DNA of 64,000 bases from Persicaria tinctoria. Its lineage: Eukaryota > Streptophyta > Magnoliopsida > Caryophyllales > Polygonaceae. Below are positions 5,060-35,815 of the stretch, one piece after another. A model generated the notes under the pieces. The model made no database searches. It was not told the origin of the DNA and was given only the letters and a program-made list of their open reading frames with translations. Each line of letters starts with the position of its first letter. Positions within the stretch are counted from its first letter, which is position 1. The stretch is taken from positions 26,259,688 to 26,323,687 of the forward strand of contig JBANSL010000013.1 of assembly GCA_037127255.1 (NCBI GenBank), in the 5' to 3' direction. Both the position numbers and the translations under genes were made by a program.

Positions 5060-5180
5060 GTTATTGTCTATCGTCAGCCTCTATGGTAGAATCAGTTGAA
5101 GGGCCTGAGAGGTGGTGGTTTATCCTGTGGGCTGTGGCGGATGTCAGCGGTTCGAGTCCGCTTATCTCCAACTTGTGAAC
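5060..5180. other. Probable plastid-derived fragment (NUPT)
   Basis: The stretch holds GGCGGATGTCAGCGGTTCGAG, then CCGCTTATCTCCAACT, and upstream CAGCCTCTATGGTAGAATC. From memory this resembles spacer sequence of the plastid inverted-repeat rRNA region. No full tRNA cloverleaf can be drawn, so this is not a tRNA gene. The match is recalled rather than checked. Confidence 0.45.
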
Positions 5181-14603: not shown

Positions 14604-14695
14604 AAGGGTCAATTTGCCGACTATACAAATACAAAGGCCAAATTAGCCAAATATACAAGATTTTGGGAATTTTGCAAAACTATACACAATACTAC
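14604..14695 (+). repeat. Left terminal inverted repeat of MULE A
   Basis: It begins AAGGGTCAATTTGCCGACTA and includes GGCCAAATTAGCCAAATATAC and TTTTGCAAAACTATACAC. The complement of 35720-35806 and the sequence 32322-32410 both align with it over about 85 bases, and the complement of 32225-32300 over about 40 bases, with substitutions and small indels. These ends therefore belong to one MULE family. Confidence 0.7.
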
Positions 14696-15429
14696 AACAA
14701 AGCCGCGCGGACCTCCCCCGATCTCTCCTTCTGATTTTCGCCAACGCTGACACGAGATAGACCGAGATCTGATTTTCGATCGCTGTAGATATCGATCAAC
14801 GCCGATCTCCTCCTGATTTTCAGTACTACATCTATCTAATATCAAAGCATTACTGGATTGTGGTTTTAATGTCAGCATTCGTATAGTTGGTAGATCTGTC
14901 GTTCATAGATCTGTGAAAAAAACTTCAATTCGTGTGTAAATATCGTTTTATATCAAATAGCTGAACTCGTATAGTGTAGATCGTGTAATTTCGACTTCGA
15001 TTGTTACTGTTTCGATACAAATCCGAGTAAGTCGTCAACAATATATAGAGTTTCAAGTTCTTCGTCGATCTGCTTCGTTAATAGATACTCGATCTGTCAA
15101 CATCACGAAACTTAAATCTGTCTGTTGGATGAATTCGAAATGTTGTGCTTGAATGAATTGAAAGGAAATAATTGTATGAATTGTTCTACATAGATCTGTT
15201 TTGATTTCTGGCCTTGTTGTGTAATGCTGACACTGTCTGAGATTTCGTAAATAAATGACATGTATCTAACTTATTTCTATCATGATGACACGGAATCATA
15301 TGCAATTCATTGTACTTGTATACATATTGCCTGTATCTAACTTATATCTATCATACTGACATGGAATCAGAATTAACTCATTGTGCTTGTTTGCATATTG
15401 TCTCTAATTAATTGATAGGTCAATCATAA

Positions 15430-17821
15430 ATGGAACCTCATGTGATTATAGTAGTATTTGGTGGATCATGGGTGTTTGTTGAAACAGGCCTGGAATTTGT
15501 TGGAAATACAACATCAAAGGTGTTTTTGCTATATGATTCAACCACACTACAAGACTTGAAGAGAAAGGTGTGCACTAGATTCAATGTAGACAGTGTGCTT
15601 GAATTGCAATTTAGTCATTTGCACCTATGCAAAAAGCTGAAAGCCCCACTTACAGTTGATTGTGACACTGATTTGAAAGAATTCCTCGATATATCAGCAC
15701 TAGATGGTGTAAACTATGCTGTTGAGTTGTGTGTCAGCATACATGCACAACCACTTGCAATTGTTGACACAGCTGACAGGGAGAGTGGGAAATCAGTTGG
15801 ATTGATTGAGTATGACAGGGAGCAAAATCATATGATTGTTGGCACTCAAATGCAGACGGTGGGGTCAGATGACATGGATGATGATATGGATGATGATAAT
15901 GACATTGATTGTGATGCTAAAACCTGGAGGAGACTGCACTCTTCAATGCGCAGTAGAGATAAAACAATAGAAGATTACAAGGATGACAGTTCTAGCATGA
16001 GTAGTTTCAACAATACCTCATCCAGCACAATGTACATTGGGAGAACCTTTGAATCAAAGAAGGAAATGAAGGATGCTTTACGTATATTATCGGTGACAGA
16101 AATATTTGGGTACCGAGTAACGAGATCTGAACCCAAGTATTTTAGGACGCATTGCGTGGATACTAGCTGCAGATAGAAGTTACACGTAAATAATGTTTCT
16201 CAGAATTGCTACGAGGTGTCAGCGTACAATAGTGTGCACACATACACATGGGATGTGAGAACAAGCAATTGCAGGCAAGCACCTTCCTCAATGGTAGCAA
16301 GCATAATCCAGCCAATGTAAGTGTCTATATGTCATCAAAATAACACTCAATTCAAGTATCACATCATTCATTCTAATGTATACATTATTACAGTGTCAGC
16401 AGCGGCTACAATCCAAAGCAGATAATGGATAAAATGAGGACCGAAAAAAGAATTCCCATTAGTTATTGGACAGCGTGGCGGTCAGGAAGAATTGCACAAG
16501 AAAGGGACAGAGGGACACCGGAATCAAATTTTGCTGACTTGCCATTATTTTGTCACATGATTATGGAGAAAAATGATGGAACTGTTGCATTGATGTCAAC
16601 AGATAATGATGACAGGTTTAAATACTTGTTTTTATCATTTGGACAGTGCATTCGGGCCTTCCCTGCATTGAAAAAGGTATAAAATTATCAGTGTCGGCAC
16701 AGATCACTTTTGAATATTTCATTGTCATCACACAACTTATAATCATTATTTTACAAGTTGTTGTTATTGATGGGACATTTTTAACTGGGAAATACAAAGG
16801 GACTTTGCTTGGAGCAGTAGCGCAAGATGCAAACAGAAATATTTTCCCGCTTGCATTTGCCATTGCTGACACAGAAAACAACAGCTCTTGGGAGTGGTTT
16901 CTTCGCCAGCTGAGGAAGGTTGTTCCTCCGTCAAATGATTTAGTGTTTGTGTCTGATAGACATGTCAGCATTTCAAGAGCAATTGGCTTGGTTTACCCCA
17001 GTGCACATCACTGCATTTGTAGATGGCACATGGAACAAAACATTAGAAGCACCTTCAAGAAAAGATACTTAGGAAATTGGTTCAAGAAAGCAGCAGATAG
17101 TTATAGTACTAGGGAGTTCGACAAATATTTTGACCGCATAAAGGAAAGCTGCCTGAAGATGGCGACCTATTTAGTGTTAGCAGGAGTACATAGGTGGGCT
17201 AGAGCACATTCACCAATCACCATATACAACATGATGACATCTAATAATGCAGAGAGCATAAATGCCATTTTCAAGGGGAAGAAAAATTATCCTATTGTTG
17301 CACTGTTGAATTTTGCTAGAGAGAAACTCGGAGCATGGTTCCAAGAGCGTAGAGAAAAGGCATCCAAACATGAGGACAAGTTGACGCCAGCAATATTTGA
17401 TTTGATTAGGAACCTACAAGATGAAGTTAGAGAATACAAGGTTCAGAGGCTGGATGAATATAAATTTGAAGTAAAAGGGCAAGGGTCTCATGCAATAGTG
17501 GACCTGTAAGAAAAAATGTGCACTTGCAAGTTTTTCGATATAGAGAAGATCCCATGTGTTCATGCTCTTTCAGCCATCCTGAAGATTAAGGCAAATGTAT
17601 CAGACTTTGTTGCCAGATTTTACACAACTGATGCTTGGAAATTAGCTTATGCTGAAACAATATACCCAGTGCTGACAGACGATGAATCAGGCGTCCCTGA
17701 AGCAATAAGATCTATAAAGTGTTACCCTCCTGTTGTTAAGAGGGGACCAGGAAGACCTCCCTCTAAGAGACTGTTGCCTGCGTGTGAGCTAAAGAGAAGA
17801 CTGAAGTACTCCAGAAAATGA
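15430..17821 (+). pseudogene. MULE (MuDR-type) transposase, nearly complete
   Basis: Exon 1 (15430-about 16315) has an N-terminal PB1-like region, an acidic stretch (DDMDDDMDDDND), and a MuDR DNA-binding domain (YIGRTFESKKEMKDALRILS). An intron (GTAAGTG...TTACAG) ends at 16394. The DDE core follows: DGTFLTGKYKGTLLGA (first Asp), VSDRHVSI (second Asp) and NNAESINAIFKG (Glu), so the triad is present. A SWIM zinc finger follows (CTCKFFDIEKIPCVHALSAI), then an AT-hook-like RGPGRPPSKR near the C-terminus. Two in-frame stops interrupt it: TAG at 16174-16176 in the DNA-binding domain and TAA at about 17507-17509 just before the SWIM finger. Both fit single C-to-T type changes. An intron around 16680-16755 has unclear borders. 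The protein would cut and insert MULEs with terminal repeats such as those of A and B. Confidence 0.85.
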
Positions 17822-17840
17822 TGGTGTCAGCATTGCTCAA
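17817..17840 (+). repeat. 24-bp repeat over the transposase stop (copy 1)
   Basis: Identical over 24 bases to 18301-18324. It contains GGTGTCAGCATTGCTCAA, that is, the element A motif. This copy includes the transposase stop codon TGA at 17819-17821. A third, partial copy lies near 18219-18235. Confidence 0.85.
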
Positions 17841-18300
17841 GACTGGCTCGCTTTATATCGTATACTTCTAAGATACAATCACTTAGAAACACCCCAGTGA
17901 TATATATTGCATACAATAAACCTGTTCTGTTTTGGAAATTACCTTTTTCGTAGTTTACATAAACCCATGTCAGCATTATGGGCAATGCTTACACTGATAC
18001 ATTCCCATATGTTTTCAAAAAGATTCAATTCACTTTGTTTCAGCATTACTTATGTCATATTGGATTTTGTACATTGTATGTGATTGGGGACTATATCAAA
18101 TTCGATCTAATGTAAAAAGCCAGATGCTTAGTTCCGAATAAGTACGTTAAACACAACAAAACACATACATTCAATATACGCGAACGATAATCAATTGAAA
18201 CAGTTGATATCCAAACCCAGAATGATGGTGTCAACAAAATACATACAGTTAATATCCAACTACATATCCAACTACAATGTCACTTGAACTAAGTACTTAG

Positions 18301-18324
18301 AATGATGGTGTCAGCATTGCTCAA
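18301..18324 (+). repeat. 24-bp repeat over the Ulp1 gene stop (copy 2)
   Basis: Identical to 17817-17840. On the minus strand it covers the stop codon of the Ulp1-like gene (18321-18323). Each convergent gene of element A therefore ends in the same 24-bp sequence, in the same plus-strand orientation. Confidence 0.85.
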
Positions 18325-19758
18325 ATTATGAAGCTCCAAGACTCCTTGATCAAGTCTGAGCAAATAAACTCTCTGTAGCGGAATAGCTTCTCATTTGTGA
18401 TGGTGGTGACATCTCCGCCAAATACAACAGCCTCGATTGCTTTCACTGTAAACACCCCACTGGCACTTCTGCACACACTCACAAAACAGACAAATAGGGG
18501 TGTGTCAAAAAAAGATAAATAGAAAGTAAATGTATGTCAGCAATTAATATAAAAGTTAGGTAAGAGTGCGAACCCAGATTTATCATGGACCATGTCAGGA
18601 ACCTTCCTTATCTCAAATGGTGTAGAGCTAAAGTTTTCATATATTCCACACTTCTCCAAGTGTATAGGAAGCCAGTGAGCAATAGGCTGGAGTTCTGCAT
18701 CTAGTACACCCTTGCCAACCCCGTAGACATTGCAGTCATAGACATTGATCACCTTCTGATCAATTATGATCTCTAAAGCAACCCAATGCTTGTTGATGAC
18801 GTTAAAGGGTGTGTAAATCTTGTTTGCAGACGCCCATGGTTTACCATACTGGTCAGGGAAAAGACCCAGGAAATAGCTCGCAGTCATTTCTGACACAGGC
18901 AAATCTACTTCGTACGCTTTGGCATTAGATGGCATGTAGTTCTGATAGAAAACCCAATCAAGGACAACAAACTCTGCATACTTATCGGCTTCCTCATGGA
19001 TCCTCTTCCTCAAATAATACAACCCTGCTTCAATATGCTACAACACACAATAACAAGCTACTGTCAGCACTAGATATACCTCAACAAATATCAATAAACA
19101 AAAACCAGAAGACAAACAATATGAAATATAATTGCTGCCAGATCATTTACCGAACAATCCAGCCACATGTCCTTGTTTAGAATTGGTTTAAAAAAGGATT
19201 TATCAACTCTTCCAGAAGCAACAATGACAGAAAAATCCCTGAAACACAAGCAAAAATTATGAATTAAACACAGAATCATAAGAGGTAGAGGTGTCAGCAC
19301 AGGACATTTAATGATTATATAACGAGTAAAAAGATAAAAAAAATACCGATTACTCCTCATAGTTTTGTACAAAAACTCATGATCATCTTCACTTAAAAGT
19401 GACTTCTTCGCATTGTGCTTGGGCCACCTCCCTTTCTTTTCTTGCTGCTTATATGGACTCGTCAGAAAGGTACTCGCTTTTGGGATACGCTTGGATCGCC
19501 TGAGTGCTTCAATCTCTTCGACTACTTTAGGGTGCTTGTTGTAGGCAACCCAGTCACTCACTACAGGAAATCCAACCGTGTCAGCATTTTCATCACCTTC
19601 AGGAGTATCCAAGTTGATAGTCCCTGGTGGTGCAATGGTAGGAGGTGGAGTTGCTGCAACATCAGCCTTCTCATCCCCATCACCCTTGCCACCTAATGAG
19701 GTAACAACATCCTTACACTCTTCACTACTTGACTTCACTAGCAGGTCAGCTTCTACAT
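18321..19758 (-). pseudogene. Ulp1-like protease part of the DUF1985-Ulp1 gene
   Basis: The 3' half of the gene split by the Gypsy insertion. Exons on minus: 19758-19347 (linker: KSSSEECKDVVTSLGGKGDG, PTIAPPGTINLDTPEGDENA), 19238-19151, 19037-18574 and about 18465-18321. All have GT/AG borders that keep frame. The last two exons form a C48 (Ulp1/SENP) cysteine protease fold. The catalytic His lies in NKHWVALEI and Asp in VYDCNVYG. The expected SGxCGVF motif reads SGASGVFTVKAIE, so the nucleophilic Cys is Ser if the splice site at 18465 is used (a neighbouring AG at 18468 gives SGSASGVF, also without Cys). Ulp1 enzymes cleave SUMO from proteins; this copy is probably inactive. It sits tail to tail with the transposase. 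Confidence 0.75.
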
Positions 19759-21765
19759 TGTTGGTAGGAGGAAATCGAGTTGCAAAATAGAATGTAAATA
19801 AAATAAGGCAAACCAGATTCCGTCCCTTGCAAATAATTACAAGACCTCCTCCTGATGCAGCAGCGGGAAGTCAGGATCGATCCACGAGGAAGCGTGTCAG
19901 CGGATCCTAGGTAGCGGAGAAATCTCACGAACAGAGGTCGACAACAGGGTCCTCGATCTCGACTAGGGTAGTCGACAGAAGATCGGACAGTCGAACACAA
20001 CGCAGCAGCTAGCACAGGCAGAGGCTTGTCGATGTCGATGAGGGGCTACTCGATGTCGAGTACTGTCCTTGTCGACTTCGCTTCGTCTCGTCCAGTACCT
20101 GCACAGTTAAGCTACAGCGATGCTAGATCAAAGATCAGTAACTCGAGGTCGACCAGGCTTGGTTGAGATCGAGTAGACAGAGAATTAAAACGAAATAAAG
20201 AAATAAAGTAAAGGCAAATGCTTTGGGACTTTCGAAATAAATTGTATGTAAAAGGCTTCCAAGATTGGGGTTTGCAAAAACGATAACCAAGCATGCATAA
20301 GGTAGAACCAAACAAATTATCATGTAAATCGCATCAAAGGACTAAGCTTTCGCCTTTTCCAATAATTAGACAACTCTCTCAAGAAACCCTAATTGTCTCT
20401 ACCGATTTTATGTTTATAATCCAAGTTGTTAGCATGGATCTCCATTAGACGGGTAATAAACACATCAACAAGTAGGAAAATGCTCAAAACATGATAAAGG
20501 TCAGATCTTTACCTCAAACACGCATGGCTATCGCTGGGCTCGCCCCAACCCTAGAAGTGGGTGGACTACTCACGCCTCATCGCAAACGCAGACATTGATT
20601 GGAAAGAAATAACAACTTGCATTAACTAAATTCAAAGCCTTTACAATCCTAGCAATCAACTCTCGTAAACTGTCAAAACCTTAAAACCTCTGAACTCCCT
20701 AAACCCTCTCTGTGGAACTACTTCTCCTACTCACTTCCCTCCCTAGAATTCCATTCATAAAACTGAGCCCCATGGGCTTTATTTATAGCCTTCTATTCTT
20801 TGCTACTCAAGGATAGAATATATATATCTATATCTAAAACTATATCTAAAATGCTTAAGGATAAATAAAAGCGATAATGAAATTAAATCTAAATATATCT
20901 AAATTGTCTCAAGTGGATAAAACTCTCTTCTTCATGATAGATGTAGATAATTCGGATAGACTAGGCTATCCTCGGCTCTAAGGACTCCAACTCCGAGTAG
21001 GATTCGTCAAGCCACGTCAACAACTTCTGGATTCGTCGTCGATGTCGACTAGGGCTCGTCGATGTCGACTAGGAAAGTCGTCGACTGGGCTGGCTTGTCG
21101 TCTCGGCTAGCAGGTCCTCGACGTGGCTTCTTCCGCTGCAGCGAGCCGCTTCTTCCGCTGCAGCGAGTCTGTCCGTCCGCAGGTGCGAGAACCCCCTTCC
21201 GCTGGAGCGAGTTGGCGAGCTCCCTCGTCTTGGTGCGTCCCGCTGGCAGCGAAGATTTCCGCGGCAGCGAGTCGAGTCACTGGCAGCGAGTGCTGCCTGG
21301 TCGTCCTCGGCTTTCCTCCTCTCCTCGTCGACTCCGGGTGTGGTGCTGAGGCGTCGTCGATCTCGACTAGGGCTTGTCGAGATCGAGTAGGGCTCCGGAG
21401 CTGGGTTGGTCTGGCTCTCGACATTGCTCCTAGTCGACAAGGCCTGTGCTCGGACATGCTCGTCTAGATCGAGTAAGGTCTACTCGAAATCGAGTAGCCT
21501 GGGCTCTCAGCTTGATTCGACTGGTCCCGCTGCTTCTTTGACCTTGGACTTCTGTAGTGGTTTTCCGAGCTTTTCTGACCTTCCTTAGAGTTGCTGTAAA
21601 ACGTCTCGAATTCTGCAAATTTAAACAGAAACTGGTGTAGATTCCATAATTTGGCAAATAAACATAAACTACATAGATTCTGTACTATCTAACCCAAATG
21701 TATGCAAAGTATGCAGAAAATGATATTAAAGTTACTGTAAAATATGGCAGATTTAGCTCACAACA
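19759..21765 (-). repeat. 3' LTR of the Athila-like element
   Basis: A 2,007-bp direct repeat of 26454-28476, about 98% identical by eye. It carries many copies of the TCGA-NN-TCGA motif. Confidence 0.93.
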
Positions 21766-23661
21766 AACACCCCATAATTAAGCTTGCTTGTCCTCAAGCA
21801 ATACTTTTAATTGTCATTCAGGGGAGGAAATCAAAACTCTCAACATATTGGATTCATTCTTATATAACCCAGCAGTCAATTACCATCCTCGAAAAGGTAC
21901 TAGTGTCACAAATTCATGCATGTGCAATTATATCAAAGCAACATCTACTCACAAAAGGAGGGTTATGCAAAAACATTCATAAGTGACAAAGCATTGATAA
22001 TCAAGAGGACTTCAATTTAAGCTCAAATCAGGAGTAGATTTGGTAAAAGGCTAAAAGGTGGGCAATTTCTGGCAATGTGGTGCTAATGATCCGGGGAAAT
22101 GGAGTATTTCCAAATTGAATTTCCACATTCCTTTTCATAAGTATCATCACCTTTCATAATGCTTTTATCAACAATAATGCTTCTACCTCTCTAACCTCAG
22201 CACTGCCTTCTCGCGAGTCGCAAACATGGGTGTCATGAATGGCCCCGGATACTTAGTGCTTTGGACTCCTCACAATGTGTCCCATCTCTCCAAACTATTA
22301 TCTCAGAGAGCAGGGTCAATCTACCTTTATCTTCTGAGGTGATTGGATTTTCTTTCACTAATTAAATTTTCCATATATTTCAAACAATTTCCTTCCAAAC
22401 TCCAATAATAATAACAACAACACAAACACCATATGATAATCTCCATAATGTAACATCATTCTCAACATAATCCCCGGATAAGGTAAAGAATGGCAAATAT
22501 TTAGATCATGTGGAGCAATAATTGAAATAAGGCATAATATGGCTTTGTGATGCATAATCATAGGTAAGGCTAGGATTTCAAGCAATGAGCATTATATAGA
22601 AATATAAAGTCCTCCATCATCTTATCATGCAACATGTCAAAAGCAACTTCAAATTTTACCTCCTTTCATGGTTTTCATAAAAATATGCACTTCATTATGA
22701 CTTCCCTTTACTAGGCAATTTCATGCTATATCTTTAATGAATCCAATTTTGCATCGTCGAGTTCAATATAAGCTTCCATGACATTATTCAAAAAATTTCA
22801 ATGGGGGTTATTTTTTAAAACTTTTGGAAAACATGCATATAAGCTCATAAATCAATAATGCATTCCAACATAGTCATATAGCAATTCGAAGAAATAATGC
22901 ACATATAATGTCAAAATAAAGTAAATATGCATAAAGTAAGCCCTTCCCCCACCCCATACTTAAAATTTACAGTGTCCCCACTGTATAAAAATCAAATAAA
23001 AACAAGAGTAAAGGAAGGAACTCACAGGATAAAACATCGAGGAAGGCGGATCTGGGCAGATCGAGTCGCTGTTCTTGTCGATATCGAGTTCAGTACTCGA
23101 TATCGAGTAGGCTCTCGGCGTCTGGTGGAATCTGAAGTCGAGGAGCGTCTGGCTGGTCCATGTCGAGTACGTCTACTCGAGGTCGAGTAACTTCTGGGCT
23201 TCTCCTCCTTGTCGTCGTCGACTTGGCCTTCGTCGATTTTGACTGTTTTTCAAGGACTTCTTATTCCACTTTTCGCGATCCTTTTATGCTTCGCTGACCT
23301 AAAAGTGTTAGATTGCACACAAAAACAAGACTATCCACATAAAACATTCTAAAAGACATAAAACCCTAAAACAAAAACCAAAAACAAAACAAAAAGTTCA
23401 AAAGTCCCAAAATCATAAAGTTTTATATACATGCTCTAGATTTTAGAGTCGCTAGGCCGACTTTTCCATTTTGCGCTCAAGGACCATTATGGTGGGGCCC
23501 TGCTTATGCTTGACCCTTCTCCTGGATCATCTAGGTCCTGATGGTAGTATGCAAGCTCAGCTGACAGGTTGTTGCTTGCATCATCTTCCTTTGCTTTCTC
23601 CCTTTTCCTTCAAGCTCTCAGTTTTCGCAGATTCTCTTGCCATGGCGTCTTATCTCCCCTT
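21766..23661. other. Internal non-coding DNA of the Athila-like element
   Basis: Where RT, RNase H and integrase should be encoded there is only AT-rich sequence without protein similarity. It includes CTTGCTTGTCCTCAAGCAA near the 3' LTR, a landmark of Athila/Tat-type 3' ends, and motif copies at 23055-23190. Confidence 0.7.
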
Positions 23662-25017
23662 TTAATCATTTAAAATTTTCTTTATGGACTGAGGGGGAGT
23701 AGGATTCATACCTGAACTTGCCTTTTCGGACCCAAAACAGGAATCTTTAGGCTTAGGGCTAGTCGACATCGATAAAGGCTTGTCGACTTCGAGTACAGGG
23801 ACCCCATACTTAGGCTCCTGGCAAGTTTCTGGCTCTGCAGTGGTTGTCGAGGTAGACAAAGGTTTGTCGAGATCGAGTAGGTCTCTTGTCGATGTCGAGT
23901 AGCGCTTGTCGACCTCGGGTACAGCGTCAACACCTTCCTCCGTTGTTTGCTTGGTCCCGTGGTTGCTGATGCTTTTCACCTCCAGCCATGCAATTTCCTC
24001 TTTTGCAGGGCCAAAAGAGAAATCCAAAACCTCCTCGCCTATGGTGAAGGTGAGCGATCTATTCTTGACACTTATTTTGGCATCTGCAGTAGCTAAGAAT
24101 GGTCGACCAAGAATAATTGGGCTAGTAGGGTCTTCAGCACAGTCAATGATAAGGAAATCAGCTGGAACAAAGAATTTACCAACCTGGACAGGGATGTTCT
24201 CAACTATACCTGTAGGGATGACTACTGTATTGTTTTCCATGTATAGCTTGGCATCCACAGGTTCTATGCATCCTATCTTTACTTTCCGCCAGATTGATAG
24301 AGGCATGATGCTCACACTTGCTCCTAAATCGCATAGAGAATCATATTTATATTGTCCAAACCCCACAGTAACAGAAAACTTACCAGGGTCCGGTCTCTTT
24401 TCAGGGAAGTGGAGTACTTTGCATTCGCCTGCGATCTCCGAGATGGATCGCTTCTTGCTTAGGATTTCCTTGAGAAATTTGACATATCCAGGCATCTCTT
24501 GCAGGGCTTCTGTAAAAGGAATAGAAACATTCAGTTCTTGCAGCATATTAACGAATCTGGTAAACCTACCTGCAGTGGGATCTTTCTGTGCTTTCGAAGG
24601 GAAGGGCAGTGGCTTTTTCAGTTTCGGAGCCTAATTAGCTGTCGGAGGTGCTGCAGCGTCGTCGACGTCAGCCAGACGCTTCTCGTCGATCTCGACAACG
24701 GGCTCGTCGACATCGAGTACAGTGGTCGACCTGGAGTTGTTGGTCTGCGCAGCGGAGTCCGAGCTCAGCTTCTGGTCTTTGTCGAGTAGAGGCTCGTCGA
24801 TGTCGAGTACGCCTTCCTCGAGATCGAGTTGGCTGTGCTCTATGTCGATTTGCTGCTCTGCCTTGCTTTGCTGTTTTCCGACCTCTGGCTCGTGTAATTG
24901 ATGTCCACTCCTCAGTTTGATAGCTGCGACGTGCCCGGTCTTCCCCTTAGCATTTGGTTCTGTTTGCCTAGGGAGTTGTCCGGACGGTCGTGGGATCTGT
25001 GCAGCGATCTCACCCAT
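23662..25017 (-). pseudogene. Linker and aspartic protease region, one internal stop
   Basis: In frame with gag but separated by a TGA near 25039 and split by a TAG at 24631-24633. The first part (24631-25017) is a linker rich in DIDE/DLDE residues, which are translations of the repeated TCGATNTCGA DNA motif. The second part (23662-24546) contains a retropepsin-like domain: YDSLCDLGASVSIMPLSIW (active-site D-L-G-A where most have D-S/T-G-A) and IILGRPFLATADAKI. The tail again translates the DNA motif, now in another frame (STSTRDLLDLDKPLSTSTTT). No polymerase domain follows. Confidence 0.75.
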
Positions 25018-25038
25018 CTGCGTCTCTATTCCCCTTTT

Positions 25039-26370
25039 TCAGATGTCTAATTCTCCAAATTTTGTAGTGATGTTCTGGAATTGGTTGTTGATGGTGCCCT
25101 GATTCCGACGCATCTCCTCAAGGATCAGCTGCAGATCATCCTTCTTTTGATCCCTTTCTAGATGTCCTGGAGCTCTGTAGGGTGGGGGATTCATAGGAGG
25201 ACCTTGGTTCCATTGTGGTTGGTAGAACCTTTGATCTCCCATGTGTCGATTTGGACCCCCAGCGTAGGCTGCCTCCTCATGTGTTTCTGCCATCCTGACT
25301 TGCTCGGTGTGTGGGCACTCAGTAGTGGTGTGCCTCTGTGATCCGTATTCGATGCAAGGCTGGTTGACAGATAGATATTTGACTTGCTTGAGGAGCTTGC
25401 GATTCTGGTCTCTGTAGAACTGCTCCCTGACATCTGGGTCAATCTCCTTTGTTGGCTCATAGAGTGGCATCGATGGTGCTGGCCTGGCGTAGGAGTTCTC
25501 CTCATAGTTTGTAGGAGCCCCATATTTGTTGTCGTAATTAGTGAGCTTTTCTAGCACACCCCATGCGTCGCTTGGTGGCATCGTCAGATACTCATAGCGA
25601 GTATAGTGGTTGATCCTATCCTTAGTGATTTGATCCAGAGAGTTGAAGAAGATCTCCTGGATGACGTAGGGTGGCTGTCCATGAGTAGGGCAAGATCGCA
25701 GTAGTTCTTTGTAGCGTTCCCATGCCTTTGCCAGCGGTTCCCCTTGCTTCTGTTTGAAGGCGGTGATTTTCTGACGGAGAAGTGCTGTTTTGGCGGGTGG
25801 GAAGTATTTGTTCAGGAACTCTTGCTCTACTTGGGCCCAGGTGGTGAGAGATCTTGGCTTCAGCCCTTCAAGCCACTTCAGTGCAGGTCCAGCGAGCGAC
25901 CAGCGAAAAGATTTCATCTTGACATATTCCAGAGTTGTACCTTCAGCAAGAGTACGACACATATCATGAAAGTTAGTTATATGTTCAAGAGGGCACTCAT
26001 TAAATTTGCCATAAAAAGCATTATTTTTAAGCTCTATAAAAAATTGAGTGCGAATTTCAAAGGAGTTATCAGGGATTATAATCGCCGATTCAGGCACGAC
26101 GAGAGCTGGATGCATATAATCCTCAGCAGTAGTTGGATATTGGGCAAGCTCAGCTTCTGCTTGCCTTGCGCGCTCAACTTCTTGTTCCCTCGCTGCCCTT
26201 TCATTCGCGATAGTGGTATCCTTTGCGGCTAGTTCCCTTGTAAGCCTTTCGATCATTTGCTCTTGTGTTTCAACGGCCGCCATGATCCTTTTGAGTTTAG
26301 AGTGGATGTGTAGGTAACGCTCCGGTTCGTCTAAGGCGTCAAACTCAGGTGGTTGACCAGAACGGCGCAT
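25039..26370 (-). CDS. Gag polyprotein of the Athila-like element
   Basis: A 443-residue frame. An N-terminal coiled-coil-like stretch (residues 25-75, ETQEQMIERLTRELAAKDTT) is followed by the retrotransposon gag capsid domain (FIELKNNAFYGKFNECPLEH, FRWSLAGPALKWLEGLKPRS, TWAQVEQEFLNKYFPPAKT, KAWERYKELLRSCPTHG). A degenerate zinc knuckle follows near residues 340-355 (CIEYGSQRHTTTEC, where the second Cys is Tyr). It would form the virus-like particle. It ends at a TGA that is in frame with the downstream protease region, so the ancestral Gag-Pro was probably one frame. Confidence 0.85.
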   Translation of the reverse strand: MRRSGQPPEFDALDEPERYLHIHSKLKRIMAAVETQEQMIERLTRELAAKDTTIANERAAREQEVERARQAEAELAQYPTTAEDYMHPALVVPESAIIIPDNSFEIRTQFFIELKNNAFYGKFNECPLEHITNFHDMCRTLAEGTTLEYVKMKSFRWSLAGPALKWLEGLKPRSLTTWAQVEQEFLNKYFPPAKTALLRQKITAFKQKQGEPLAKAWERYKELLRSCPTHGQPPYVIQEIFFNSLDQITKDRINHYTRYEYLTMPPSDAWGVLEKLTNYDNKYGAPTNYEENSYARPAPSMPLYEPTKEIDPDVREQFYRDQNRKLLKQVKYLSVNQPCIEYGSQRHTTTECPHTEQVRMAETHEEAAYAGGPNRHMGDQRFYQPQWNQGPPMNPPPYRAPGHLERDQKKDDLQLILEEMRRNQGTINNQFQNITTKFGELDI

Positions 26371-26453
26371 ACACCTATATAATAACTCAAAGCAGATGTA
26401 AGATTTAACTACCTAAGGTGCGAATGATAGCCTCCCCGGCAACGGCGCCAATT

Positions 26454-28476
26454 TGTTGGTAGGAGAAAATCGAGTTGCAAAATAGAATGTAAATAAAATA
26501 AGGCAAACCAGATTCCGTCCCTTGCAAATAATTACAAGACCTCCTCCTGATGCAGCAGCGGGAAGTCAGGATCGATCCACGAGGAAGCGTGTCAGCGGAT
26601 CCTAGGTAGCGGAGAAATCTCACGAACAGAGGTCGACAACAGGGTCCTCGATCTCGACTAGGGTAGTCGATAGAAGATCGGACAGTCGAACACAGCGCAG
26701 CAGCTAGCACAGGCAGATGCTTGTCGATGTCGATGAGGGGCTACTCGATGTCGAGTACTGTCCTTGTCGACTTCGCTTCGTCTCGTCCAGTACCTGCACA
26801 GTTAAGCTACAACGATGCTAGATCGAAGATCAGTAACTCGAGGTCGACCAGGCTTGGTCGAGATCGAGTAGACAGAGAATTAAAACGAAATAAAGAAATA
26901 AAGTAAAGGCAAATGCTTTGGGACTTTCGAAATAAACTGTATGTAAAAGGCTTCCAAGATTGGGGTTTGCAACAACGATAACCAAGCATACATAAGGTAG
27001 AACCAAACAAATTATCATGTAAATCGCATCAAAGGACTAAGCTTTCGCCTTTTCCAACAATTAGACAACTCTCTCAAGAAACCCTAATTGTCTCTACCAA
27101 TTTTATGTTTATAATCCAAGTTGTTAGCATGGATCTCTATTAGACGGGTAATAAACACATCAACAAGTAGGAAAATGCTCAAAACATGATAAAGGTCAGA
27201 TCTTTACCTCAAACACGCATGGCTATCGCTGGGCTCTCCCCAACCCTAGAAGTGGGTGGACTACTCACGCCTCATCGCAAACGCAGACATTGATTGGAAA
27301 GAAATAACAACTTGCATTAACTAAATTCAAAGCCTTTACAATCCTGGCAATCAACTCTCGTAAACTGCCAAAACCTTAAAACCTCTGAACTCCCTAAACC
27401 CTCTCTGTGGAACTACTTCTCCTACTCACTTCCCTCCCTAGAATTCCATTCATAAAACTGAGCCCCATGGGCTTTATTTATAGCCTTCTATTCCTTGCTA
27501 CTCAAGGATAGAATATCTATATCTATATCTAAAACTATATCTAAAATGCTTAAGGATAAATAAAAGCGATAATGAAATTAAATCTAAATATATCTAAATT
27601 GTCTCAAGTGGATAAAACCCCCTTCTTCATGATAGATGTAGATAATTCGGATAGACTAGGTTATCCTCGGCTCCAAGGACTCCAACTCCGAGTAGGATTC
27701 GTCAAGCCACGTCAACAGCTTCTGGATTCGTCGTCGATGTCGACTAGGGCTCGTCGATGTCGACTAGGAAAGTCGTCGACTGGGCTGGCTTGTCGTCTCG
27801 GCTAGCAGGTCCTCGACGTGGCTTCTTCCGCTGCAGCGAGCCGCTTCTTCCGCTGCAGCGAGTCCGTCCGTCCACAGGTGCGAGAACCCCCTTCCGTTGG
27901 AGCTAGTTGGCGAGCTCCCTCGTCTTGGTGCGTCCCGCTGGCAGCGAAGATTTCCGCGGCAGCGAGCGGTCCGCTGCAGCGAGTCGAGTCGCTGGCAGCG
28001 AGTGCTGCCTGGTCGTCCTCGGCTTTCCTCCTCTCCTCGTCGACTCCGGATGTGGTGCTGAGGCGTCGTCGATCTCGACTAGGCTTGTCTAGATCGAGTA
28101 GGGCTCCGGAGCTGGGTTGGTCTGGCTCTCAACATTGCTCCTAGTCGACAAGGCCTGTGCTCGGACATGCTTGTCTAGATCGAGTAAGGTCTACTCGAAA
28201 TCGAGTAGCCTGGGCTCTCAGCTTGATTCGACTGGTCCCGCTGCTTCTTTGACCTTGGACTTCTGTAGTGGTTTTCCGAGCTTTTCTGACCTTCCTTAGA
28301 GTTGCTGTAAAACGTCTCGAATTCTGCAAATTTAAACAGAAACTGGTGTAGATTCCATAATTTGGCAAATAAACATAAACTACATAGATTCTGTACTATC
28401 TAACCCAAATGTATGCAAAGTATGCAGAAAATGATATTAAAGTTACTGTAAAATATGGCAGATTTAGCTCACAACA
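26454..28476 (-). repeat. 5' LTR of the Athila-like element
   Basis: 2,023 bp; it has about 17 bases near 27968-27984 that are missing from the other LTR, within a GCAGCGAG-rich tract. The primer-binding site follows it on the minus strand. Confidence 0.93.
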
Positions 28477-31400
28477 TACATCCTCACCGGTGCTCTGCAG
28501 TCCCCTGTCAGCATCTTCATGACCTCCATCGTTGCTGTCCTTAAACTTTTCGCCTCTTGGCTCCATGGACATCAAATCAGAATCACGGCCTAGATCAAAA
28601 GCAAAGTGAACTGAATCTGACTCTAGTGTCCTCTGTCCTTCAACCAATGTGACAGGAATGATAGACTCCGGAACCACAACATCAACTGTAATTTTTTGGG
28701 TTTCATCTCTCTCATCACCACAGGAAGGTGTCTTCATTTGTTTACAATCTTTGGGTGAATCCAACTCAGCTTCCTGCTCACCCATAGCATCCTCAAGGAT
28801 AACACCCATCTTCATGTCAGCAATAACATCACTCACCATCTTGGTACTTGGTTGATCAATGTTGACAGATGACTGTGACCTTGCAACAATAGATTCATGC
28901 AGTGTGAACCTATTCTCAAGTGAATTATACTTTTCCATCAGGTCTGTAACCATTGTGACAAGTTCAATCGCCCTATCAACACGAGAGCCCAACTCATTTA
29001 AACATGCAGGCAGCTCTTCAAGCTTTTCAATCCTTCTTACTAAATCATCTACACGTGCCGGCAACTCTTCAAGTTTTTCAATCCTTTTGCATCACCAGCA
29101 ACACCATGCCCTTTTGCATTTTCATCTTTATCACCACCATCCAACTCTGGCTCTTTTGAATGCTCGTCAGACACTCTCTTCTGGTTGTCACCACAATCAC
29201 CCTTGGCATCACCACCAGTGTCTCTGTTGGCACCTACCTCCAGCTTGTCATCACCACTAGTGTCAACGTCTTGACCATCACCAACAACATCTTTAGTGTC
29301 AGCATCCATTCCTTTGTTCAGAAGTAAGAGAGCATTTTCAGTGTCAGCATCAACCTTGGTGTCATCAAACCCTTGACTGCCATCATTGGGGTCAGCATTC
29401 TCAGTGTCAGCATCAACACCTTGGCTCCTATCTAGTTGATCATCATTGGGGTCAGCCTTTACTGTGTCAGCCTGAGCTTCACCTTGCACCTCACCAAACG
29501 GTACAATCACTTTACAGGCATCACTCACAACTTCAACGGGAGATAAACACGCATCAATAGGGGCTTGGGGAATGGAGGAAGACTTGTTTGAACTGCTACT
29601 TTTGTACAACATTCTACGTTTCCCTGTACTTCCCATAGCTTTCTTCCTCTTCTTCAAAATATACTGAATAGGTTTATCCTCGTCAGATGTATCACAAGCA
29701 TATCTAACTTGGTCATGTTTTTCTGCCTGTACAACAGCCTCCTCCCTGTCAGCACCACCCTTCTTGGAAACCCTGTCTGCATCCATTGTGGTTGTCTCTG
29801 TGTCAGCATAAGGAATCACATCTCTCTTAGATTCCTCACCTCTGTTAAAGTCAACAGCCTTCTTCCTAATCCTCCCAGCCTTCCTCCTGATTGATTTTAT
29901 AACTTCTATGTCAGCCTTCCTCCCAGCTTGAGGGTTGGTTCGTGGAGGTCCACTAGAATGCCCTCTCCTCACATCAACTCTCTTCACCTCGATCTCAGTG
30001 GATGGACCTTTCTGCTTCTTCTTAGAAGGCTTTCCTGTGTTAGCATTTTTCCTCTTTTTCCCCTTCTCTACATCAACAGATTTAGCCTCAACATTTCCTT
30101 CATCAACCTCACGTTTCCTGTTCGTTCGCTTCTCTATCTCAACAGATATCTCCTCTTCCTCTCCTCCAACAAAACCATACTCAAAAGACATAAATGATTC
30201 AATCTCTAAACCATCATTACGTAAAAACTTGTTTTCATATGCATACTTGCGCATATACCGACAATCATACAGAAGATCAGTAGGTGGTTGAGAAAACATA
30301 GGCTCACCAATGGCATCACATACATCGTCAGCCTCTTCATCAATATAACCCATACCTGGGGTTCTTGCAAACTTTCCATAGTTTGGGAACATCGGTGTCT
30401 ATCATGCACATCAAAAAAAATATAAATAAGAAAACACATGTATATAAGACGACAGAGTTGGTGTCAGCACTGATATATTTCTCTTACCAAGTCACCATCA
30501 AATAGCTCGTCATCTTCATCATAAGTATGCCTAACCTTGCAAACCCAATGCAAAGAATGAGGATCTCTATCATTCATCCTCAAATTACAGTCAAACTTAT
30601 CAGACAACGCCGGAAAAGCTTCAAATATCCAGGCCTGTAAAAACAAAACAAGTGGTCATGCAAACACAATAACAATGCATAAGAAGCTGACACATGGTGA
30701 GGATTGATTACACAAGTAATGAATGCTGACACGTATCAAGGAATACATGCAATTCTGACACAAGTAATGAATACATGCAATGCTGAAACGTAGTAAGGAA
30801 TACCTTCAATGCTGACACATAGTGAGGATTGATTACAAGGATATATCAAACAAGTAAACAGAATACCTGAAAAGCAATCCAATATCCATACAACTCATAC
30901 GAAGGCCTAGCTTTCTTGCGATCCATCGTAGCTGACTTCTTCAAGGCCTTCAATAGAGATTTATAGGACTGTCTGCCCCATGGATATTGTCCAAACATCT
31001 CGTCATCACAAGCAAGTGATAGATTTTCCTCACTAATATAGTCTATCCGCCTATAACACACAACCATCTCAATGAGCAACAGCCTCGCTATAATTAGCTT
31101 CTTCTTCGACTTCTTCTTCATCTGTCGGAAACAACTGATCAAATCATCATGGGAGCATCTATCCATCCCAATAAAATCAGAAAAAGTCACTGCTTTCGGA
31201 GGATTGCAGACACGGTCTTCGCATGGAAGACCAGTCATTACATGAAACTCAGCCAAAGAAAAACGAGTTATAAGTCCATCAACTTTGAACCAGAGTTCCT
31301 TCTTCTTCTTCGTCTTAACCTGCTGCAACATCATTTGATGGATTAACTAGAAGTTAACAGTCATATTGTTGCCCTGGGAGAGCACCCATCCCAGAAAACT

Positions 31401-32065
31401 CTCCTTCAACATCTTATAGTGCAAAGGTAGCAACTCTTGTTTAATAATGTCACAAACTCCAGGATGACAGTATAGATTAGATCTGGCATGGAAACGCTCT
31501 TTGTATGGAATACAAAACTTCAATTTCTGCAAAAAAAATGTGTACATATTGAATACAAAAGCACATGTCAGCATTTGAGGCAGACACAATGACAACAACT
31601 ACTATATAAATTTCATAGACTCACATCAAACTTGCATTTGTAAGTATCAAGATCAGTTGAGGTCCCTGTCAACATAACAAAAACAAGATAACCAAAGAGA
31701 CAAATAGATGTCAGCCCCACAAAAATATGAACCCTAAACACAAACATACACACACACCACACCCAGAACACGCCAAAAATCAAAGACGACAAATAGTGGA
31801 CATGCAAAAGGATGGAGATGGATTCCAAAAGAATAGAATGAGATGCCAAAATCGAGGTCAGCATTACAAATAGAGGTCGTAAATGCTCAATAACGCACAT
31901 ACTAGTACGATTGAGAACGAACAACACACATTCATCCAAAAAAAACCTAACGACAACAATCGCGTCATCGCACAAACTCACCAACGCATAATCTGACATA
32001 AACAAAACCCTAACACACAGAAACGGTACAAAATCAACAAAACGTTTACCTGCGCTGCTAGCCAT
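28477..32065 (-). pseudogene. DUF1985 part of the DUF1985-Ulp1 gene
   Basis: The 5' half of the same gene. Exons on minus: 32065-32050 (MASSA), 31665-31625, 31526-30867, 30634-30488 and 30398 downward to 28477. Exon 3 carries the DUF1985 domain: RFHARSNLYCHPGVCDIIKQ, ELWFKVDGLITRFSLAEFHVMTGLPC, IARLLLIEMVVCYRR and YELYGYWIAFQ. A long low-complexity, basic region follows (KKKQKG, RRKAGRIRKKA), with repeated ADT/ADP residues that are translations of the GCTGACA motif. A predicted coiled coil (two copies of RRIEKLEELPA-like sequence) comes next. Lesions are an in-frame TAG at 31347-31349 and a frame change near 29070-29100. The frame reads on across the Gypsy insertion once one TACAT copy is discounted (GEDV joined to EADLLVK). 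Confidence 0.75.
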
Positions 32066-32419
32066 ACTGAATAACCTTCAATACCAGACGAAAACGAGCA
32101 CGAAACGGCCGGAAAATGTCGCTTCTCAGAGGAAACCGTCGAAGAACAGTTGGAGAGAGGAAAACCGTAATGGAGGGAGTGAGAAACGGGAGAGAGATAG
32201 AGAGGGAGTGAGCAGTTGAGGGGGGTATCGGGGGGGTGTTTGTGTTTCAAATTGAGATGTATACTTTTGCAATTTTTACACAAACGTGTATATTACCTTT
32301 TACAACTTTTGATTAAGTAATGAAAAAATTTGCGCCAAAAAACACAAATTTTCGGCCAAATTAAGAAACTATACACGTTTTGGTAAAAGTTGCAAAACTA
32401 TACATTTTATATCTTTTAA

Positions 32420-34390
32420 CCCTAATCACTCTCCACTCCCGTTCCTTCCGATCTGAGATCTGAGATCTCGATCTATCTCTCCCATGGTCGCTCGTCCATG
32501 GCTACCTCCAGATCTGATGCCCCTCAGGGCCGGACCTGAATACAGGCCCAAGAGGCATTCGCCCCGGGCCCAATGAGCTCAAGGGCCCATATATATTATA
32601 TATTATATATATTTATAAAAAAAATCTGGCAAGCAAGTAGGAGGGCACGCTTGGAAACGCTGCGTTGCAGAGAGTAAAAAAAAAAGCGGATACAGAATTA
32701 AAAAAGAGGGATGAACCATGAAATTCGAAGACAAGGAGGGTGCTAGGGTGTTCAGGGCCGGCGATTCGCAAGAGAGGCCACCGGCCGGAAATCCGACATC
32801 GAGGCTCCCCTTCCAGCGGCGGTATCTCCCTCCAACTGCAGCCCGTCAGGCGTCAGCCTTCGTCTTCGCCGTGAGCCTGAGCGTCTTCGCATCGCGCCAA
32901 TTAGGTACTAGCTACTGTCCAGATTTATGCTCTATTTTTCCTTGTTGATTCATCCCCTCAGTGTTATCGATCATCTTAAATTGCACATTGAGAGCACTTG
33001 TTTAATTGAATTTCAATCTCCATTGAGTTTTGTGTGTTGTGTGTCTACTTTTCTGCTGGAAATTTGGGGATTTTATCCCTTTTAGTTTTGGGCTTAGGGT
33101 TTGATGGAGTTTATTGTTTATTATTAATTGTTGCTCTCAATTTAAATGGATATGATTGAATTTTCGAAATTGAGACTTAAGTTGTTTTTTTTCTTTTGTA
33201 GAGATGGAACCATAAATATGAAAACGAAGCTTTTGTGTTTTGCTTTTGACATGAATATCATTTTTTTATAATGATCCTAGAATCTATGAAATTCCTAACA
33301 AAATTAGACCTTTGTGGTTGTTGTTTTTCCAGGGTTTGTGATTAAGCCATTAAGGTATGTGAAAATACGGAGTATTTTCATATTTCTTCTTTGATGAGAA
33401 CACAAAAGAGTCACTTTAACAATCTCAAAGTAAAAGAAAATAATATTAAGAGGTATTTCACTACTAATCAAACCGTTGATGAAGATGTCAAAGAAGAGGG
33501 TCCATTTTCGTTTCTCGCCTTGGGCCATTCAAATCTCAGGTCGGCCATGATGCCCCTCCTTCCCTCTCCTCTCTCTCTCACCCTCGCCCTCTCGCTCATC
33601 GCCTTCTCTTTCCCGCACACATCTATGGAATCTCTCTTTCTCCAGCGGCGGGAGCGAGATCCGAGTGTGGTCGGAGGCACAAGGCGTCGAGTATGGTCGG
33701 AGGACCGAGTGTGTCTGTGTGTCTGGATGTGTTGGCGAGGCGGCGACGGAGGAAGGAGGGCTGATCTGTGTGCGATTGCGAGTCCACTCGTCATTCGCAG
33801 TCCTCCATGTATCAGATCGATGAGCACAAATCCGAATTCGGCGGATGAACAAGGGCGGCTGCGATCTCCTCCCTGGAGTCTCCGTGGTCGGGATTCTGGT
33901 TGCGCTCCTCTCTTCCTCGATCGCTCGCTCTCTGATCTGTGTTGGAGAAACTGGAGGCGAAGCTGGCGGCCGACGCGTGCTCTTGGTGGCCATGGCGGAG
34001 GAGACGGATCCGGATCTCTTCCTCCTCTCATGCTCTTCTTCCGCCTCTACAACTTCATTGCTGACAGCATATTGAAGCTTTGTTTTCTTGCTGCTGCAAC
34101 TGCTTGCAATCGCTTTTATCTCCTGCGCTTGTGTTGAAGGATTCTCTGGCCAGTTCTTCCTCTTTGTGCTGCTTGGCCTCTGCCTGAGGGTTAAACTTCT
34201 ACGGAGTTTGCCTTCTCGTTTCAAGGTGTGTCCATTTTTCTATGGCAATAATAGTTTACATTGTCTGTTTGTTTGTCCCCGTGTATTTTGGTTTGCAAAG
34301 TCGATATTGCAAACAGATTCTCTTCTCGTATTCTACATTAAAATAAAGGTTTCTGAAATTCACTGTGTATTTGCTACACAATCATAAAAT
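32420..34390. other. GC-rich interior of element B, possibly captured host DNA
   Basis: Long overlapping frames on both strands (33391-34224) are rich in Arg, Ser and Pro and show no domain. I read them as by-products of base composition. The composition resembles gene 5' ends, so this may be a Pack-MULE-type capture. A stretch at 32526-32580 (CAGGGCCGGACCTG, GGGCCCAATGAGCTC) looks like a separate old repeat. Confidence 0.4.
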
Positions 34391-34835
34391 CTATACAAAG
34401 ATATATGACTGGCAGGTGGGAAAGGAGACATGAAGAATGAAATTCATTAAACAAAGGAGAAGATTAATGGTGTTTGACTTAGTATGTAAAAGACTAAAAG
34501 TTCAATTCCCCTCCACCCCCAAATCAATTCATAAGTTTCCACTTGCCAAGAATAATTTCCACTTCACCTATGCAAAGTAAGTTGCATCATTATTCATATC
34601 ATAATTAGATGAATTAGGAGGGATTGGAAGTTATTGAAATATAGGTAGATGGTAGGTAGATGTACTAATTTTGGTAGTTGCTTTAGCTTAATTAGGCTTT
34701 GTGGTGTTTGGATAGTTTGCATGTGTATTAAAGCATAACTTATGTTTTTAAGTTAATGATTTTTAGCTAATGATTTTTTAGGTTGTTGATATTTTTTTTG
34801 AGTAATGCAATTTGTCTCCAATTTATTTGAGCGCT

Positions 34836-35175
34836 GACATCGTTTTTAGTTGGATATATGTAGGTATATATGTATGTTTGAGTCCTTAAAAATTAATTAG
34901 TTTTTTAGTGTTGACATCGTTTTTATGAGTATTTTTTAGTGCTGACATCGTCTTTAGTTTGATATTATATATGTAGGTATATTTATATGCTTGAATCCTT
35001 AAAAATTGGTTTGTTTTTTAGTGCTGACATCGTTTTTATACGTATTTTCAGTTCTGACATCGTTTTTATGCATATTTTTTAGTATTGACATCGTTTTTAT
35101 GCGTATTTTTTAGTGATGACATAATTTTTATGCATATTTTTATGTAGGTATATATTTGCTGACATCGTTTTTGCA
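34836..35175. repeat. Irregular array of GCTGACATCGTTTTT units
   Basis: Eight or so copies of a 15-base unit with consensus GTGCTGACATCGTTTTT (near 34842, 34911, 34941, 35021, 35053, 35085, 35113 and 35157) separated by 25-80 bases of TATGTAGGTATAT-like filler. The unit contains the complement of TGTCAGC. Confidence 0.85.
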
Positions 35176-35426
35176 ATATAAGAGATGGAGGAGGAATGAT
35201 GTCAGCATCGGCAAATTCGGCGTATTCGGTGTCGGCGTCAGCCAACTACTTTTGAGAAGATTGAGACTTTAATAGCTTCAATGTCTTCAATAAAATATTC
35301 TTTTGTTTCTTTTTTTTAGTAGAACATTCTTTTGTTTCTTTGTTTTTCCTCTTTTATATTTTATATAAAATCCAAATCATTGGTAATGACTCAATACGTC
35401 AAATATATTGATCTTCGATATCATCA

Positions 35427-35660
35427 CCGTCGGCGTCAGCATTCTCGTAGACGACGTCAGCAATGCTGACGTCAGCATTTTCGACGTCGCCGTTAACATC
35501 CTCGTAGATGGCGTCAGCAATGCTGATGTCAGCATTTCCGACGTTGGCGTCATCATCCCTGTAAACGGCGTCAGCACTGGTGCGCGGGAAAAAAAATAAT
35601 GGCGTCAGCATTCTATAAACGGCGTCAGCAATGCTGACGTCAGCACTTCCGACGCCGAAA
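35427..35660. repeat. Palindromic GACGTCAGCA cluster near the right end of B
   Basis: Repeated blocks of GCGTCAGCAATGCTGACGTC followed by AGCATTT or AGCACTT occur near 35457, 35512 and 35622, with single GGCGTCAGCA copies at 35431, 35567 and 35602. Each block is an inverted repeat of GTCAGCA around AT. Frames here (repeated ADVSIADAVY-like residues) are translations of the repeat, not a gene. Confidence 0.85.
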
Positions 35661-35815
35661 AAAAAGGGGGGGGGGGGAAGGGGCACACAGAAGGGGAAGG
35701 GGGCACGTAGGAGGGGCACAAAGGATGTATAGTTTGCTAATTTTTACCAAACTTTGTATAGTTTGTTAATTTGGCCAACTTTTATGTGTAGTTTGCAAAC
35801 TGTCCCTTAAGTAAT

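Follow-up and report, generated by a model that had tools for sequence, protein, structure and literature searches.

A TGTCAGC motif dispersed through a Persicaria tinctoria Mutator-like element family encoding a DUF1985 protein: a probable VANC-type anti-silencing system

Introduction

Why should a single seven-base word, TGTCAGC, recur throughout a transposable element, in its spacers, introns and exons alike? The question is raised by element A, a Mutator-like element (MULE) at 14604–32312 of a 64,000 nt stretch of Persicaria tinctoria DNA (assembly GCA_037127255.1, contig JBANSL010000013.1, positions 26,259,688–26,323,687 of the forward strand; hereafter the window). An earlier note on this DNA had proposed that A encodes a DUF1985 protein related to the VANC proteins of Arabidopsis and that the word is the target of such a reader, which counters silencing. 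The analysis described here leads us to consider it probable that the family to which A belongs (family 1) uses a motif and its reader against silencing in the manner of VANC, with binding and anti-silencing predicted by homology.

Results

Saturation of family 1 with the motif

The window holds 46 TGTCAGC sites (all counts are exact scans of both strands and so take in the complement), 32 of which lie in element A outside an inserted Gypsy element. The length counted is 9137 bp, which includes ∼160 bp of site-free Gypsy long terminal repeat (LTR; 19759–19835 and 28396–28476). These numbers agree with the roughly 30 copies in about 9 kb that had been claimed, at coordinates within 3 bases of those found here, against about one expected by chance: 300 dinucleotide shuffles of A gave 1.44 ± 1.20 copies with a maximum of 5. 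TGTCAGC is, as had been predicted, the most frequent 7-mer of the element. The best 7-mer of any kind in the shuffles reached a mean of 10 and a maximum of 15, and the one-base neighbours of TGTCAGC occur 0–10 times each in A. The contexts of the sites extend the motif to R-TGTCAGC-ATT, positions beyond this contributing no more than 0.18 bits each. The Gypsy insertion served as an internal control and, in line with the note's 'very few', carries three copies in 8.6 kb, two of them at the corresponding position in both LTRs; a site at 19895 falls within the Gypsy LTR and not in A proper. The window without elements A and B (the latter a neighbouring insertion described below) has four sites in 41.5 kb. 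The site at 5142 lies within a stretch that we take to resemble a plastid-type tRNA end.

The enrichment extends, as the note had anticipated, to other copies in the genome (1.68 Gb, 221 contigs). Family 1 was defined by transposase matches, of which there are at least 150 at 91–100% identity (150 of 7320 candidates were scored), and 30 loci totalling 112.5 kb were fetched. All 30 carry 11–21 sites, and TGTCAGC is the top or tied 7-mer in 28 of them, the overlapping GTCAGCA being ahead by one in the other two (L019 and L026); the same 112.5 kb contain 526 TGTCAGC and 28 copies of a permuted control, TGACTGC. Five longer stretches hold 30–38 sites (two of these, L040 and L042, are rearranged relative to A). 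Three near-complete copies have 34–38 sites each, distributed uniformly along the element (Kolmogorov–Smirnov p of 0.65–0.75), with one or two in the outermost 500 bp; the 0.9–1.0 kb of flank of each copy is free of sites. Genome-wide, RTGTCAGCATT occurs 8269 times and the reversed pattern 246 times; since the reversed control contains a CpG, which lowers its count, an excess of 4–5-fold over the roughly 1600–2000 copies expected from base composition alone (by arithmetic) is the fairer figure. A CpG-free control of the same pattern occurs 0 times in the 30 loci, compared with 143 for RTGTCAGCATT.

The sequences around the sites are hardly more alike than random ones. In copy L041, ungapped comparison of flanks gave a likeness of 0.272 versus 0.261 for random positions, with only two of 703 site pairs more than 55% identical; most sites were therefore probably made separately and not by tandem duplication.

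Organization of element A and its neighbour

The features of the locus, with sites from exact scans, are as follows.

14604–32312, + strand: MULE A, family 1; left terminus at ∼14604, right end reaching the element B insertion; interrupted by the Gypsy element
14746–15232: leader with three TGTCAGC sites (14746 −, 14870 +, 15226 −)
15430–17818, + strand: MULE transposase region, open pieces with Pfam domains
15430–16173, + strand: transposase open piece, DBD_Tnp_Mut
16377–16679, + strand: transposase open piece
16622–17506, + strand: transposase open piece, MULE and Transposase_mut
17510–17818, + strand: transposase open piece, SWIM
15732 +, 15772 −, 16217 +, 16394 +, 16865 −, 16963 +, 17671 −: sites of the transposase region
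17825–18541: four sites between the convergent genes and at the Ulp1 end (17825, 17968, 18309, 18535), all +
18540–19037, − strand: Ulp1 (Peptidase_C48) domain piece, Pfam E 1.8e-9
19062–19585: three sites, all + (19062, 19292, 19579), on the Ulp1 side of the gene and close by
19759–28476: Gypsy insertion, Retrotrans_gag recognized; boundaries from copy alignments
28489–30398, − strand: part of the DUF1985/Ulp1 gene that is variable and charged; its nine sites (28506 to 29909) encode repeated Ala-Asp-x
30462–30817: DUF1985 gene, four sites that no open frame covers, probably in an intron (30462 +; 30686, 30725, 30811 −)
30849–31346, − strand: DUF1985 domain, Pfam E 1.4e-24, matching VANC21
31566–31715: two + sites, at 31566 and 31709, upstream of the DUF1985 exon
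32322–35806, inverted relative to A: element B, a non-autonomous relative with A-type ends
34793–35161: tandem array of ∼31 nt units with TGTCA(GC) in B
35428–35652: 57 nt repeats with (T/C)GTCAGCA units in B

The transposase is thus on the + strand of A, with DUF1985 and the Ulp1 C48 domain convergent to it on the − strand. Over its left part, A is 92–96% identical to copies L039–L043 (BLASTN). To judge from the layout, the two − strand domains belong to a single gene; in L041 the frames of the DUF1985 domain and of the Ulp1 piece (Peptidase_C48 E 2.7e-8) are open, read as separate pieces and not as one assembled gene. The Gypsy insertion separates the two in A, while L039, L041 and L043 align on either side of 19758/28477 without it. 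As it stands, the window copy is broken and unable to make the DUF1985 protein, because a stop codon (31347–31349) lies immediately upstream of the DUF1985 domain in a frame that is open in L041, because of the Gypsy insertion and because Ser replaces Cys in the Ulp1 region (in translations of the next piece downstream, at 18459–18461, A has Ser and L041 has Cys). The site at 16217, outside the open pieces of A, is within an open frame in L041, and the L041 counterpart of 30462–30817 has four sites spaced 28–29 nt apart.

Comparison of the ends of A with the copies revealed no target-site duplication, nor was one found for L041; duplications of 9 bp flank B and L040, L039 has one of 8 bp and L043 only a T run. 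A MULE transposase with a SWIM finger together with a 9 bp duplication (B and L040) is the combination that marks VANDAL MULEs. The left end of L041 matches the inverted right end of L039 at 82% over 68 bp, and so weak inverted ends exist; elements with terminal inverted repeats are reported within the VANDAL clade (PMC6446971).

Element B is flanked by a perfect 9 bp duplication, TTAAGTAAT, at 32313–32321 and 35807–35815. It contains 19 GTCAGC, where 1.1 would be expected, grouped in arrays of two kinds, and no Pfam domain was found in the two long frames tested.

Sites in coding sequence

Sixteen of the 32 sites of A are coding when frame-corrected open pieces are used; another set of pieces assigned 15 sites to coding sequence (5.0 kb) and 17 to the remainder (4.1 kb). 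The rate in the coding pieces is ∼20 times that of dinucleotide shuffles (by arithmetic). The note had held that the motif is read in both strands and several frames. This is true of the transposase pieces, whose six sites fall on both strands and in two frames, but does not extend to the DUF1985/Ulp1 pieces, whose ten coding sites share a single strand and frame and all encode Ala-Asp-x. Both sets nevertheless exceed what synonymous-codon shuffling yields (six sites versus 0.54, maximum 4 of 5000 shuffles; ten versus 1.84, maximum 7 of 5000), in support of its view that selection acts on DNA rather than protein.

In an alignment of the 30 loci (13 reverse-complemented to a common orientation), motif columns were less variable than GC-matched CpG-free 7-mers (0.022 versus 0.035, p = 0.027), a modest degree of the conservation for which the note had proposed to test. 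Where a site has been lost, TGTCAAC or TGTCAGT often stands in its place, changes that would be expected from deamination of methylated C.

A second DUF1985 family with another motif

A Pfam DUF1985 search, in which 150 of 4775 candidates were scored and the 30 best loci fetched (102.5 kb), defined family 2. Its loci have 0–1 TGTCAGC each, 13 in total, and carry 188 copies of CCRTGTCA (0 of the permuted control CCRTGACT) and 193 of TGTCACC (counted without a permuted control). A word scan placed GGTGACA among the top five words of 24 of the 30 loci, an excess in most but not all. Related DUF1985 families thus favour different motifs, TGTCAGC in family 1 and CCRTGTCA in family 2; the two sets of loci span different parts of the elements, and longer stretches agree. 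TGTCA itself has a density of 7.6–8.1 per kb in both families versus 2.0–3.4 in the window flanks. A third DUF1985 group is present in the genome.

The family 2 locus L074 (9.9 kb) has no TGTCAGC and 23 CCRTGTCA, with arrays of 22 nt and 224 nt; it encodes one DUF1985 and two Ulp1 domains (Peptidase_C48 E 1.4e-13). The Ulp1 domains, at 3499–3993 and 6833–7447, are encoded on opposite strands and surrounded by inverted repeats.

Three DUF1985 proteins from other sources (P0001, P0002 and P0003) have VSA or VSI in their C-terminal tails. In one frame RTGTCAGCATT would encode VSA/VSI, a hint that the motif may be shared beyond the P. tinctoria genome.

Other motif-rich sequences

The Gypsy insertion has its own frequent words, with 29 copies of TCGANNTCGA and 25 of TACTCGA/TCGAGTA, both in its LTRs and in coding frames; the coding count is 14 versus 2.5 in synonymous shuffles (maximum 9 of 2000), and this is possibly a second motif-marked element. 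Another repeat family (L001–L008) has TGTCAGCAC/TGTCAGCGTTTTCGTGTCAGC arrays and 3–10 TGTCAGC per 3 kb; in L002 these arrays adjoin others rich in GTGCAA.

Discussion

Relation to known systems

The DUF1985 domain of the family is homologous to VANC21 by sequence and by fold (PDB code 9lnj), which upholds the proposed relationship to VANC proteins. The primary paper on Kaonashi (KIU) is reportedly that of Sasaki et al. in EMBO J in 2022. VANC21 is reported to bind YAGTATTAY at noncoding sites, often in tandem repeats (PMC5735166), and to have anti-silencing activity (PMC5735166, PMC10398659). VANC effects reach coding regions, where their role and control are termed enigmatic (PMC10398659). 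VANC6 targets are described as carrying AGTTGTCC/AGTTGTAC in tandem in noncoding DNA (PMC5735166), and a review describes Kaonashi as Ulp1-bearing VANC genes conserved in eudicots with family-specific target motifs (PMC13317346).

Like VANDAL21/Hiun, family 1 is a MULE that encodes a DUF1985 protein, with the same domain, and has a short motif dispersed through the element; as in VANC6/VANDAL6, a separate VANC goes with a separate motif; and like Kaonashi it has DUF1985 and Ulp1 encoded by one strand of a single MULE. YAGTATTAY is absent from A, L041 and L074, and AGTTGTCC and AGTTGTAC from A and L041; AGTTGTAC occurs three times in L074. Unlike Kaonashi, as far as the review describes it, family 1 has the motif TGTCAGC spread over coding exons. 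Because the VANC21 and VANC6 motifs and Ulp1-bearing Kaonashi genes have already been reported, family 1 is, to judge from its sequence, of a known kind, the VANC type that was described in Arabidopsis and has been reported from eudicots. Two things are apparently new, the TGTCAGC motif and the way it extends into coding exons, for the most part outside tandem repeats. We make no claim of priority: coverage was incomplete, and among the titles and abstract openings listed, nothing under DUF1985, VANC or Ulp1 dealt with this motif, nor did any title listed for TGTCAGC concern plant transposons.

Proposed mechanism

In the mechanism that we favour, the DUF1985(-Ulp1) protein would recognize R-TGTCAGC-ATT in double-stranded DNA and, given an even distribution of ∼35 sites over spacers, introns and exons, would coat the element. 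The bound protein would then remove or block DNA methylation and dimethylation of histone H3 lysine 9 across the family copies, allowing the transposase to be expressed; non-autonomous copies of the B type would be marked likewise. The motif and its saturation of all 30 fetched copies, the excess over synonymous choice, the homology and fold shared with VANC21, the different motif of the second family and the arrays in B were observed; from them we infer this DUF1985 protein as the reader and anti-silencing as the outcome. The earlier proposal is thus supported in part; copy A itself, being broken, cannot be a source of the protein as it stands.

Several observations weigh against the proposal. 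The 30 loci are ∼97% alike and therefore do not amount to 30 independent tests, and the excess conservation of the motif among such similar copies is weak. Among homologous transposases, the residues that the motif encodes show no significantly lower conservation (four sites, 17 homologues, p = 0.31), and in A the pieces with the DUF1985 and Ulp1 domains contain no sites. Close family 1 sites show no ∼10.5 bp helical phasing (R of 0.04–0.15, 6–14 pairs per copy); values of 0.53 in the 31 nt array of B and 0.71 in the 22 nt array of family 2 arise from the repeat length. CCRTGTCA is frequent in family 1 too (111 in 112.5 kb versus six in 41.5 kb of the window), so that the TGTCA core is common and the motifs are not cleanly exclusive. 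The family differs from VANDAL21/Hiun in its motif, TGTCAGC, and in having sites that are also coding and mostly not in tandem; confinement to noncoding tandem repeats, a VANDAL21 trait, is not seen in family 1, tandem arrays being found in B and family 2. Finally, the structure model of the DUF1985 protein is of moderate quality (mean predicted local distance difference test score of 71).

Alternative explanations

A genuine motif/reader pair might serve another purpose, such as self-recognition in the control of transposition or recruitment of the Ulp1 protease, which acts on the small ubiquitin-like modifier SUMO, with demethylation secondary or absent. The Ulp1 domain encoded beyond DUF1985 on the same strand fits this, and the review cited above calls the function of Ulp1 in elements of this type unknown (PMC13317346); we nevertheless think it unlikely, as VANC21, the closest characterized relative found, has published anti-silencing activity.

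TGTCAGC might instead be the binding site of the transposase itself, repeated to aid synapsis. Subterminal repeats have this role in some cut-and-paste transposons, a DNA-binding domain is present in the MULE transposase of the element, and non-autonomous B retains motif arrays. The sites, however, run across the whole element, with the three near-complete copies having only one or two near the ends, and L074 has motif arrays of its own while no transposase was noticed in its frames (no dedicated scan was made). The transposase, which the note had named as the alternative reader, is accordingly less likely in that role, and its own binding site an improbable account of the motif.

Equally doubtful is the recruitment, for expression, of a transcription factor of the host that recognizes a TGTCA core, of which TALE homeodomain factors are an example. 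The TGTCA richness of both families relative to the window flanks agrees with it, but an exact seven-base core followed by ATT, at ∼4 sites per kb with exons included, does not, and neither do the differing flanking preferences of two co-resident families. That protein repeats and tandem duplication generated the excess incidentally, with no reader, is very improbable: the ten coding sites with one frame and an identical Ala-Asp-x peptide, and the short arrays, would suit it, but 16 or 17 of the 32 sites (depending on the set of pieces) lie outside open pieces, the transposase sites occupy two strands and two frames above synonymous shuffles, very few site pairs have similar flanks and element B is enriched.

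Implications

Starting from the VANC-type reading, we suggest more tentatively, and at somewhat less than even confidence, that the motif forms an overlapping code. Separate mutations may have written it into exons and spacers, making the whole gene body a landing platform, and co-resident DUF1985 families may keep a TGTCA core while differing in its flanks, giving partly separate anti-silencing channels.

Sequence-specific anti-silencing has so far been worked out in Arabidopsis VANDALs. A high-copy family (at least 150 matches) with a predicted motif, a homologous candidate reader and a sister family with its own motif would offer pairs in which the evolution of DUF1985 specificity could be followed. 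It also raises the question of whether the density of motifs in exons may explain the lifting of gene-body methylation, a point described as enigmatic for VANC (PMC10398659).

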